A stretch of 64,000 nucleotides of DNA. Origin: Loktanella sp. (GTDB lineage Bacteria; Pseudomonadota; Alphaproteobacteria; Rhodobacterales; Rhodobacteraceae). Positions 2,178 to 6,636 of the stretch are shown piece by piece. A program made the position numbers and the translations under genes. The first letter of the stretch is position 1; the number at the start of each line of letters is the position of its first letter. The DNA is taken from the NCBI GenBank assembly GCA_024686085.1, contig JAIBDT010000001.1, positions 1 to 64,000 of the forward strand, written 5' to 3'. Below the pieces are notes generated by a model. That model ran no database searches and was not told the origin of the DNA. It worked only from the letters and a program-made list of their open reading frames with translations.

Positions 2178-3230
2178 TTATGATTCGTCTTCTTCGTCCT
2201 CCGAAACCAGTGTAATGGCGCCGCTATCTACCAGCTCCCTGATTGCGGACGACAGGTCACGCATCGCCTCTTCCGCTACTTTGGCTTTAACCGCACCTTT
2301 TTCGGCTGCGTCTTCGCGAATCTGACCGGCCATGCGTTGCGAGATATTAGCGAGGATAAACTCTGCACTGGCCACAAAGGCCTCGTCGCCGGTCAAACCG
2401 GCTGCAATGGCGGTGGACAACACGTCCGCATCAACGCCACGAATACATGCAGGGACATCTGTCGGGACCAAGCGGGCAGGGATATCTTTGAACGTAAAGA
2501 TCGCTTTGCGCACATTGTCGGCGAAAACGGGGTCATCCGTTCCCAATCCCTCTAGGACGTTTTCGCGGGTTAACGCAGGGCTGGAGTTCAAAATCGCACC
2601 CACGCGCGCAACGGGCGCTTTATCAAATGCGACGACCTTCTTAGTGCAATATTCCTTGACCAATCCCGCACCAATGCGTCGCACCGCGTCCGGCGCAATT
2701 TTTTCCGTTAACGATATTGAATAGGTAATGCGGCGTGCCTGATCGCCGGGCATTTTTTCCAAAACCAAAGCAGCCTTTACCACAGACAGTTTCGACAATG
2801 CGACTGCGGATACCTCTGGGCTTTCGCGGCTCATGATAGATAATAAAGTTTCATCAGGTAAGGCCAATATCATCGGCCATGGATCACCGTTTTTGGCGCT
2901 GCTCATCTCGGCACGCAAACGATTCGCTAATTCGGGCGACAGGTGGGACGACAACGCCTCGATGGCACCATCAGCCCCACCCGGCGACGAGAGGCCAATA
3001 GCGCCCAAATCACGGGCAAATTCTTCTGCGACTTGGTGGACGGTTTCGCGGTCGACGGGTCTGATCGCACCCAGTTCGCGCGCAAGTAATATCTGCATTT
3101 CCTCAGGAAGCTGGGACAATTGCAACTTGCCCCCGTCGCCGATGAGCAACTGTACAATCATCGCGGCCTTACGCTTGCGCGATAGGCGTGGCGTGCGGTC
3201 ACTTAACGGGGCGAGAGTAGATGCTTCCAT
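2178..3230 (-). CDS. fliG: FliG-like flagellar motor switch protein
   Basis: 350 aa; RKAAMIVQLLIGDGG N-terminus, FliG-type middle and C-terminal domains (FTFKDIP, LSTAIAAGLT), acidic C-terminus. Confidence 0.75.
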   Translation of the reverse strand: MEASTLAPLSDRTPRLSRKRKAAMIVQLLIGDGGKLQLSQLPEEMQILLARELGAIRPVDRETVHQVAEEFARDLGAIGLSSPGGADGAIEALSSHLSPELANRLRAEMSSAKNGDPWPMILALPDETLLSIMSRESPEVSAVALSKLSVVKAALVLEKMPGDQARRITYSISLTEKIAPDAVRRIGAGLVKEYCTKKVVAFDKAPVARVGAILNSSPALTRENVLEGLGTDDPVFADNVRKAIFTFKDIPARLVPTDVPACIRGVDADVLSTAIAAGLTGDEAFVASAEFILANISQRMAGQIREDAAEKGAVKAKVAEEAMRDLSSAIRELVDSGAITLVSEDEEDES

Positions 3231-3279: not shown

Positions 3280-3765
3280 TCAAGTATGGGTAAATTGCAC
3301 CGACATTGTGCGCAACGCAGCGGCAGTCTCGGGGGATAGGGTCTTCATATCTGTTGTTGCACGATGCAACATTTCCAGCTTTTCCAAAAACATAGCACGT
3401 TCAGCATCGGTGAAGTCGCGATCTGCGCGTGCAAAACTGCCAATACTACGGCTCTCGTTTGCGCCTGTTGCGCAGGTCGCCCCAAATTTCAGGCCAAATT
3501 CGGCGGCTTTATTCAACACGCCAGCTGAGTCGGAGTCACGTAGGTCAGTCCAATTGACCGCACCATCATTCTCAAAGCCCCATGCGACAATCGGATCAGA
3601 TAGAACCAGGCTGTTTTGCGAATAGTAATCTAGCCAATCTTTGGGGTAGGTCTGGAACAAAAAGCTGGGCGTGGTAAAGCGCACATGGAACGCAAGGGCA
3701 AAGCCACCTGACGCGGTCTCTTTTAAATCTGACAGAGTGTTACGAACTTCTAGCTGCGCTGCCAT
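3280..3765 (-). CDS. LuxR-type autoinducer-binding domain protein lacking the HTH domain
   Basis: 161 aa; aligns by eye to the N-terminal domain of the 3903..4508 product (P..W.D.Y.QN...L.DPI..W, RS.GSFAR.DR.FT..E) and stops before any HTH. Confidence 0.75.
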   Translation of the reverse strand: MAAQLEVRNTLSDLKETASGGFALAFHVRFTTPSFLFQTYPKDWLDYYSQNSLVLSDPIVAWGFENDGAVNWTDLRDSDSAGVLNKAAEFGLKFGATCATGANESRSIGSFARADRDFTDAERAMFLEKLEMLHRATTDMKTLSPETAAALRTMSVQFTHT

Positions 3766-3902
3766 AAAGATAGTCTCTTTCTAGTTGCCAAAATTGACCC
3801 AAACGTAATACTAGTACAGGAACCCTACGATCACAAATCTAGGGAAATTTTGCGAGATGCAACATATGTTTTTGTATAGTCTATCGCGAAGATAGAGACG
3901 AG

Positions 3903-4508
3903 ATGCAGCAAGTCGAACCACAAGATGTGCAGGCCCTCGCACCTGCTGGGCACTATATTGCTTTGCGAATAGGATTCGCGTTTCCTGTGGAAGAAGTGAA
4001 TGAATTGCCACCGGAGTGGGTCGATCACTACACACAAAATCGCTATATGTTGTTTGATCCCATTATCCGCTGGGCTTACGGCAACGTCGGTATGGCCCGC
4101 TGGGGTGAATTGTCTGAGGAAGATCCGCGCAAAGTGATTGCACAGGCGCAGACTTTCGGCCTGCGGTATGGGGCCGTGATTTCGGTTTTTGACGGAAATG
4201 AAGAAGGGCAGCGATCTTTTGGATCGTTCGCGCGAAGCGACCGTGAATTCACCGAATTAGAGATGCGCGTTCTGCAAGCCTATGTTTCGCGGCGGCATTT
4301 TGAAATGGCACCACCCAAGAACTTGACTATGGCGGAACTCGAAGCGCTGGGAATGGTGCGAGACGGGAAGCGTTTAAAGCAAGTTGCACATGAATTGTGT
4401 GTCTCCGAAGGGGCGGTCAAACAGCGGCTTAAGAACGCCAAACTAAAGCTCGGGGCAAAGACAGGATCTCAGGCGGCGGCGATGGCTGCACAATATGGCC
4501 TGATTTAA
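3903..4508 (+). CDS. LuxR family transcriptional regulator (autoinducer-binding + HTH)
   Basis: N-terminal autoinducer-binding domain and C-terminal KQVAHELCVSEGAVKQRLKNAKLKLGAKTGSQAAAMA (LuxR HTH). Confidence 0.9.
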   Translation: MQQVEPQDVQALAPAGHYIALRIGFAFPVEEVNELPPEWVDHYTQNRYMLFDPIIRWAYGNVGMARWGELSEEDPRKVIAQAQTFGLRYGAVISVFDGNEEGQRSFGSFARSDREFTELEMRVLQAYVSRRHFEMAPPKNLTMAELEALGMVRDGKRLKQVAHELCVSEGAVKQRLKNAKLKLGAKTGSQAAAMAAQYGLI

Positions 4509-4532: not shown

Positions 4533-4634
4533 AATGTGAAACGTAAATTCTTCCTTAATGAGGGAGGGTGCCGTTCTGTTGTGACACTTTTAGGCTGCAA
4601 TGGTATCCATAACTCGCCAATAGGGGGAGCTATC

Positions 4635-5288
4635 ATGGAACACATCACATTTAATCTGGCGCAAATGCACCTATACGGAACGGCCTTTTATGACTTCTTG
4701 GGACTGCGTAAGCGGTTCTTCGTGGACAATCTGGGCTGGGACATTCCACACGACGATCACGTAGAAATGGACCAATACGACAACCCGCGGGCGTATTATT
4801 CGCTTGTTTTGCGCGACGGTAAGGTGATCGGTGGCGCGCGGGCGATGGCGACAACAGCAAAATGGGGAACACATTCCTATATGTTGCGCGATGCGTTGAA
4901 GGGAAAACTGATCGATATTCCATGCAGCATCATCTCAGAGGATATTCAAACTAATGACATGTGGGAATGCACCCGTTTGGTGATGTCTGACGACGTGGAC
5001 ACGCATGCAGATAGATCGGCTTGCTTGGGGATGATCGTGCAGGGCCTGGTAGATGTAGCCGCCGAAAACGGCGCATCAAGCCTCATGTCGCTTTCGCCAT
5101 TGGCGCTGATGCGGGCTTTGCGCCAGTTGGGGTTTGATGCCACGCGCATTGGCGAGCCCTATCTGAACGAGGGGGATGGGCGGCGCTATGCGGTGTTGTC
5201 GATGCCGGCCAAGCGGACGATGCCACACATGCCGCGGGCAACGCACCGGACGCAGCCAATGCCGCTGCATGCGCCATCGGTGGTTTAG
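4635..5288 (+). CDS. LuxI-like acyl-homoserine-lactone synthase
   Basis: LRKRFFVDNLGWDIP...EMDQYDNPRAYYSLVLRDGKVIGGARAM...MWECTRLVMSDD; adjacent to luxR; ATG at 4635 preferred over the upstream start in the ORF track. Confidence 0.8.
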   Translation: MEHITFNLAQMHLYGTAFYDFLGLRKRFFVDNLGWDIPHDDHVEMDQYDNPRAYYSLVLRDGKVIGGARAMATTAKWGTHSYMLRDALKGKLIDIPCSIISEDIQTNDMWECTRLVMSDDVDTHADRSACLGMIVQGLVDVAAENGASSLMSLSPLALMRALRQLGFDATRIGEPYLNEGDGRRYAVLSMPAKRTMPHMPRATHRTQPMPLHAPSVV

Positions 5289-5328: not shown

Positions 5329-6636
5329 TTAGACGTCTCCAAACACGCGGCGGAAAATCGTATCAACATGCTTGGTATGATAGGCCAGATCGAATTTCTC
5401 TTCGATCTCTTCAGCAGACAGCGCTTTGCGGACGTCTTCGTCTGCCAATAGCTCTGTCTTAAAATCAGCGTTATTATCCCAGACTTTCAACGCGTTACGC
5501 TGTACGTAACGGTAGCTATCCTCACGGCTCACACCCGCTTGGGTCAAGGCAAGCAGCACACGCTGGGACATGATCAACCCGCGGAACTGGTGCATATTCT
5601 TCAGCATGTTCTCGGGGTAAATAATCATCTTTTCAACAACACCTGCCAAACGGTTCAACGCAAAATCAAGCGTGATCGTTGTGTCTGGGCCAATAGTGCG
5701 CTCAACGGAAGAATGCGAAATATCGCGCTCGTGCCAAAGGGCCACGTTTTCCATCGCAGGGATCACAGACATCCGGACCAAACGGGCCAGACCCGTCAGG
5801 TTTTCAGTCAGGATCGGGTTCTTCTTGTGCGGCATTGCTGACGAGCCCTTTTGGCCCACCGCGAAATACTCGGCACCTTCCAACACTTCGGTACGCTGCA
5901 TGTGACGGATTTCAGTCGCGACGTTTTCAATTGAAGACGCAATCACGCCCAAGGTCGCAAAGAACATTGCGTGACGGTCGCGTGGGATCACTTGTGTTGA
6001 AATCGGCTCTGGTGTCAGGCCAAGCTGTTCGCAGACATGTTCCTCAACACGTGGGTCAACGTTTGCAAATGTGCCAACAGCACCCGAAATCGCACCCGTC
6101 GCGATCTCGGCACGGGCATTGATCAAACGGGCGCGGTTGCGATCCATCTCAGCGTAGAAACGCGCAAAGGTCAGACCCATTGTGGTGGGTTCCGCGTGAA
6201 TGCCATGGCTGCGACCAATTCGTGGGGTGTCTTTGTGTTCCATCGCGCGAGTCTTCAACGCAGCCAGCAAACGGTCCATATCCGCCAACAGCAAGTCAGC
6301 AGCGCGGACAAATTGCAGGTTTGTGCAGGTGTCCAGAACGTCAGAAGACGTCATGCCTTGGTGCACAAAACGGGCTTCGTCCGATCCGACATGTTCGGCC
6401 AGATGCGTCAAGAACGCGATCACGTCATGCTTGGTGACCGCTTCAATCTCGTCAATGCGCGCGACGTCAAACTCGACATCCTTGGCTTTCCAAACCGCGT
6501 CCGCATTCTCGCGCGGGATTACACCCAGATCGGCCATCGCATCACAGGCATGGGCCTCGATCTCATACCAGATTTTGAACTTTGTCTCCGGAGACCAAAT
6601 AGCAACCATTTCGGGGCGGGAATAACGCGGGATCAT
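5329..6636 (-). CDS. purB: Adenylosuccinate lyase
   Basis: MIPRYSRPEMVAIWSPETKFKIWYEIEAHACDAM; signature GSSAMPHKKNP. Confidence 0.95.
   Translation of the reverse strand: MIPRYSRPEMVAIWSPETKFKIWYEIEAHACDAMADLGVIPRENADAVWKAKDVEFDVARIDEIEAVTKHDVIAFLTHLAEHVGSDEARFVHQGMTSSDVLDTCTNLQFVRAADLLLADMDRLLAALKTRAMEHKDTPRIGRSHGIHAEPTTMGLTFARFYAEMDRNRARLINARAEIATGAISGAVGTFANVDPRVEEHVCEQLGLTPEPISTQVIPRDRHAMFFATLGVIASSIENVATEIRHMQRTEVLEGAEYFAVGQKGSSAMPHKKNPILTENLTGLARLVRMSVIPAMENVALWHERDISHSSVERTIGPDTTITLDFALNRLAGVVEKMIIYPENMLKNMHQFRGLIMSQRVLLALTQAGVSREDSYRYVQRNALKVWDNNADFKTELLADEDVRKALSAEEIEEKFDLAYHTKHVDTIFRRVFGDV

Follow-up and report, generated by a model that had tools for sequence, protein, structure and literature searches.

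The closest described counterpart of the gene studied here is CerN of Cereibacter sphaeroides. There, the LuxR-type regulator CerM binds DNA without AHL and controls ctrA and flagella, and pull-downs show that CerN binds CerM solely when AHL is present; together, CerN and AHL release CerM from DNA (PMC11655674). Swimming via Fla2 is abolished by deletion of cerN or cerI and restored by deletion of cerM, and the weak AHL response of CerM has been attributed to the substitution W57F (PMC11655674). TrlR of Agrobacterium tumefaciens is likewise a LuxR-type ligand-binding domain that lacks a DNA-binding domain. As cited in PMC11655674, it inhibits its full-length relative TraR, which is 88% identical to it and needs AHL to bind DNA.

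A second line of work concerns the arrangement of quorum-sensing genes in roseobacters. The "D topology" of Cude and Buchan (2013, PMC3824088), listed for Loktanella, Octadecabacter, and relatives with two luxR loci per genome, has fliG opposite and upstream of luxRI and adenylosuccinate lyase downstream. The passages of that survey that deal with this topology make no mention of a missing HTH in one luxR. Since the survey dates from 2013, it could draw no link to CerN, and we found no other paper in the open-access literature that connects CerN/CerM with the D topology. Already known, therefore, are the locus as described in 2013 and the biochemistry of CerN/CerM in C. sphaeroides (2024); new here are the family-wide scope, the shared C-terminal end, the presence of W57 in almost all partners, and a divergence of the HTH-less protein that tracks the synthase.

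An HTH-less LuxR-type gene beside luxR, luxI, and fliG

The window analyzed is a stretch of 64,000 nucleotides from a Loktanella sp. assembly of 2.99 Mb (109 contigs, 91% complete). At positions 3280 to 3765 on the minus strand it contains an open reading frame with an ATG start that encodes a CerN family protein of 161 aa. The only Pfam match of this protein is the autoinducer-binding domain PF03472 (62 bits, E = 5e-17), which spans residues 32 to 135 (positions 3361 to 3672, minus strand). No GerE/HTH domain was found by Pfam, so the protein does not qualify as a LuxR-type transcription factor. Divergent from it lies a full-length luxR of the CerM type (3903 to 4508, plus strand), whose product carries both the autoinducer-binding and the GerE domain and is the presumed binding partner; a gene for a LuxI-type AHL synthase (4635 to 5288, plus strand; PF00765, 48 bits) then follows, with an ATG start and a possible longer GTG start at 4536. 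The original prediction of an HTH-less LuxR paralog divergent from a complete luxR-luxI pair is thus confirmed. Its claim that the protein aligns with the autoinducer-binding half of the adjacent LuxR also holds: the cited motifs are present, and identity is 38% over 114 aa by BLASTP, with an E value of 3e-28 that places the likeness far above chance.

On the other side, 49 bp separate the stop of the HTH-less gene from the start of fliG (2178 to 3230, minus strand), a conserved neighbor that encodes the sole FliG_C match in the genome. As had been predicted, this leaves no room for a lost HTH; among ORFs of at least 50 aa, neither the interval from the stop to fliG, read in any frame, nor the orthologs contained one. 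Downstream of luxI lies a further conserved neighbor, purB (5329 to 6636, minus strand), named as adenylosuccinate lyase after the D-topology description in PMC3824088, and a homologous ORF occupies the same place in loci L037 to L039, L042, and L043. With fliG opposite and upstream, luxR-luxI, and adenylosuccinate lyase downstream, the window has the layout of the D topology. As a separate observation, the window fliG scores 97 bits against an NCBIfam fliG cutoff of 226.7 bits, a value far enough below the cutoff to indicate that FliG of this group is divergent.

The pocket residues W57, Y61, D70, P71, and W85 of TraR correspond to W44, Y48, D57, P58, and W72 of the window protein. All five positions are kept in every one of 77 HTH-less family members; the comparison covers five of six pocket residues, G113 not being confidently alignable. 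The original prediction had also held that the protein ends before any DNA-binding domain. This is correct as regards a GerE/HTH match, but the last ~20 residues, TLSPETAAALRTMSVQFTHT (residues 142 to 161; positions 3283 to 3342, minus strand), align with the linker and first HTH-domain helix of LuxR, NLTMAELEALGMVRDG, and the protein stops there. Column counts demonstrate that this C terminus, ending ..S(I/V)..TH, is constant across the family (L in 63, S in 57, T in 56, and H in 56 of 64 sequences). Since it aligns with the linker and HTH helix 1 of full-length relatives, members of the family stop after HTH helix 1, and the simplest reading of the alignment would be one old truncation event. 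An AlphaFold model (mean pLDDT of 81, built on an 8-sequence alignment) shows a ligand-binding fold of the LuxR type, in which residues 120 to 138 form a long helix and residues 145 to 160 the final one, and matches the LuxR-type receptors RhlR, SdiA, LasR, and TraR.

Relationship to CerN and CerM

Locus L073 (genome G107) is the one that we take to be the cerN locus of C. sphaeroides. There, cerM lies divergent from an HTH-less gene of 160 aa; both the order of the genes (cerN-cerM-cerR-cerI) and the FYDPW pocket found in CerM agree with PMC11655674. In phylogenetic trees, CerN falls among the HTH-less proteins and CerM among the adjacent LuxRs, including that of the window. The first tree gives support of 0.98 to the partner group and 0.75 to the HTH-less group; in the second, a single branch with support of 100 parts all HTH-less from all full-length sequences. 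Rooting with distant LuxRs gave an unstable root position on which the two trees disagree, and the assignment of a full-length parent clade to the HTH-less family by this rooting was dropped for that reason.

CerN (RSWS8N_05815) and the window protein are 37% identical and share a length of ~160 aa, an autoinducer-binding domain without an HTH, an intact pocket, the same truncation point after HTH helix 1, and divergence of the gene from a full-length luxR; CerM and the window LuxR belong to the same clade. The two loci differ in their surroundings, since cerN is linked to cerR-cerI and is not adjacent to fliG, whereas the window gene is linked to a D-type luxI and fliG. Residue 57 of the partner differs as well, being substituted in CerM (W57F) and still W in the window LuxR. 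GtaR and LuxR1 of R. capsulatus and D. shibae, which apart from the CerM type are the closest full-length relatives, belong to the same LuxR subfamily; these proteins have an HTH and their own luxI and form a separate group in the trees. The window protein has the domain content, the five pocket residues, the divergent CerM-type luxR, and the tree position of a CerN family member. On this comparative evidence, the window gene is a cerN ortholog, and the LuxR beside it falls with CerM.

Conservation of the HTH-less gene and its partner

Within the genus, 54 of 57 genomes yielded relatives of the HTH-less gene; the other three are incomplete or draft assemblies (72 to 92% complete). When the family was sampled with one genome per genus, at least 41 of 249 Rhodobacteraceae genera proved to have the gene in the fetched loci. 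In a class-wide sample, 239 other genomes, at least two of them from Rhodobacteraceae, gave no match at an E value of 1e-15. Profile searches of all ORFs were used to classify the 77 HTH-less loci. A CerM-type full-length luxR is adjacent in 76 of these, divergent in 74 of the 76, and luxI of the same type is also present in 66.

The loci that depart from this arrangement do so in several ways. In L073, L077, and L088, the HTH-less/LuxR pair lies beside a different LuxR/LuxI set. No luxI was found within the 6 to 8 kb examined in L040, L085, and L087, where the LuxR partner is present, and L067 and L114 have the rearranged order luxR-luxI-HTH-less, tandem on one strand. The only HTH-less gene without a CerM-type luxR within 19 kb is that of L089/L121. 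One genome (G062) was observed to carry two divergent HTH-less/LuxR pairs, L049 and L087; one has fliG and luxI, and neither gene was found in the fetched stretch around the other.

The lack of an HTH domain could also mean that the gene is a decaying luxR pseudogene, and in relative G029 an in-frame TAG does interrupt the HTH-less gene (C35:8284-8756), through either pseudogene formation or sequencing error. However, length and C-terminal end are kept over the 77 loci, and dN/dS is 0.03 to 0.12 in the five close pairs to which the estimate was restricted (synonymous divergence of ≤1.5), demonstrating purifying selection at the sequence level. Orthologs that retain an HTH, which the original prediction had named as evidence against itself, occur in none of the 77 loci. 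These conservation data effectively rule out a decaying luxR; the window gene is, by the same data, a real, conserved CerN family gene. Its family membership, intact pocket, linked partner, and purifying selection can accordingly be regarded as established from sequence.

The constant presence of the partner also bears on the suggestion, made in the original prediction, that the protein is a signal sink or buffer, binding AHL and lowering free signal while leaving LuxR untouched. An intact pocket in a protein devoid of a DNA-binding domain would suit such a role. A sink leaves unexplained why a CerM-type luxR is kept alongside in 76 of 77 loci, at least three of which (L040, L085, and L087) have no nearby luxI; moreover, HTH-less distances covary with LuxR distances, and CerN binds CerM in pull-downs (PMC11655674). 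We therefore regard a sink as improbable.

Signal sensing and control of the adjacent LuxR

The reading that we favor, with a probability of roughly 0.7, is that the product of this cerN ortholog, which has no DNA-binding domain, is a receptor for AHL that partners the neighboring LuxR and detaches it from DNA. The HTH-less protein would bind AHL and, once bound, would pair with the CerM-type LuxR via the dimer surface of the ligand-binding domains. Pairing would remove LuxR from DNA or alter its grip on it, and a LuxR that is active in the absence of signal would in this way be switched off at high cell density; the output may feed into CtrA and motility. By analogy, we infer that the window pair works as CerN/CerM does, the C. 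sphaeroides ortholog being the only one for which AHL-dependent pairing and release of the partner from DNA have been demonstrated. Three observations count against a CerN-like mechanism: W57 is kept in the partners, the C. sphaeroides pair is linked to another type of synthase (CerI), and the HTH-less gene of L089/L121 is partnerless.

The original prediction had proposed a dominant-negative heterodimer on the model of TrlR, a precedent cited in PMC11655674 and PMC13043044. Under that model, LuxR would be an activator of the classical kind, switched on by AHL; the HTH-less protein would tie it up in inactive heterodimers and so raise the quorum threshold. The two proteins do have the ligand-binding domain in common, and the partner keeps the five tested pocket residues, including W57, so that activation of LuxR by AHL is possible. 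However, the regulator of the closest characterized pair, CerN/CerM, needs no AHL to bind DNA, and divergence of LuxI is tracked by that of the HTH-less protein, not by that of LuxR. In addition, TrlR is nearly identical to its target (88%, as cited), whereas the window protein is 38% identical to the adjacent LuxR, is not a near-identical truncated copy of it, and is a member of an old family that is conserved from genus to genus. The heterodimer part of the proposal stands, since AHL-dependent pairing has been demonstrated for CerN on CerM (PMC11655674) and the window protein has the same family and arrangement; the blocking of an AHL-activated activator does not, and we consider it unlikely. 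The analogy with TrlR is partial because CerN/CerM is an ancient pair (31 to 38% identical) and DNA binding by CerM does not require signal. Since CerM is bound to DNA in the absence of AHL and released by CerN with AHL, the sign of the circuit may be the reverse of that of TraR/TrlR.

It is also conceivable that the HTH-less partner mainly guards LuxR from degradation. Deletion of cerN does lower the level of CerM notably, but the residual CerM still represses swimming fully (PMC11655674), indicating that the net role of CerN there is antagonism. A chaperone or stabilizer thus appears very improbable, and AHL-dependent antagonism of the adjacent LuxR by the HTH-less protein is the most likely function by analogy with CerN.

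W57 is kept in 74 of 75 partner LuxRs, the window LuxR among them, and W57F is for this reason not a general explanation for a weak AHL response. Having W57, the window LuxR may bind AHL itself, and the sign of its circuit may differ from that of CerN/CerM. Mantel tests were performed on the 44 loci with all four genes, with the effect of FliG distance removed. HTH-less distances correlated with LuxI distances (0.35, P = 0.0005) and with LuxR distances (0.26, P = 0.001), whereas the value for LuxR versus LuxI was 0.10 (P = 0.16). The HTH-less/LuxI correlation exceeded the LuxR/LuxI correlation in every subsample drawn; these tests are correlative, involve related sequences, and use FliG as the single control gene. 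The pattern fits what would be expected of an HTH-less signal receptor bridging to LuxR. A tentative extension is a two-protein receptor throughout the Rhodobacteraceae, in which AHL would be sensed chiefly by the HTH-less protein, whose evolution would follow that of the synthase; the CerM-type LuxR, evolving more slowly, would provide the DNA-binding output and perceive signal mainly through its partner. If so, W57F would not be the general cause of the weak AHL response of the CerM type.

These comparisons turn a single C. sphaeroides case and the unexplained second luxR of the D topology into one conserved module, present in at least 41 of the 249 sampled genera. AHL receptors without a DNA-binding domain would then be a standing part of Rhodobacteraceae quorum sensing, and studies of it in Loktanella, Yoonia, or Octadecabacter should regard LuxR and its HTH-less partner jointly as the receptor, rather than LuxR by itself. 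The place of the gene beside the sole fliG, together with the ctrA and motility output of CerN/CerM, makes a link between quorum sensing and motility directly testable. ChpT of the CckA/ChpT/CtrA relay is encoded in the genome. Elsewhere in the genome lie two more luxR-luxI pairs, a solo luxR, and a GtaR/GtaI-like pair that is apparently split over the ends of contigs C109 and C12 (L122, 7561 to 7761; L123, 4224 to 5063); an in-frame TAG in this pair, near a contig end, may be an assembly effect.

Two elements were noted in the intergenic region. A 22-bp imperfect palindrome, ATCTAGGGAAATTTTGCGAGAT (3837 to 3858), was considered as a lux-box-like site and dropped, being absent from relatives. 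Just upstream of the HTH-less gene, alignment with genus relatives identified a conserved leader element, TTGGCAACTAGAAAGAGA (3774 to 3791, minus strand). By eye, ~9 to 10 of 15 bases of the leader match TATCCAAAAAGACAG, too weak a likeness for a CerM site. The element is 18 to 20 nt long, lies at the same place in the genus relatives (consensus TTGGCAACCGGAAAGCGA / TTGGCAACCGGAAAGCGAGT), and occurs once per genome; 11 of the 13 genomes searched gave a match, and in 10 of these it adjoins the HTH-less gene. It may be an operator, a promoter, or a translation-control site, and a shorter core of it, GCAACC..AAAGCGAG, extends to other fliG-linked genera.
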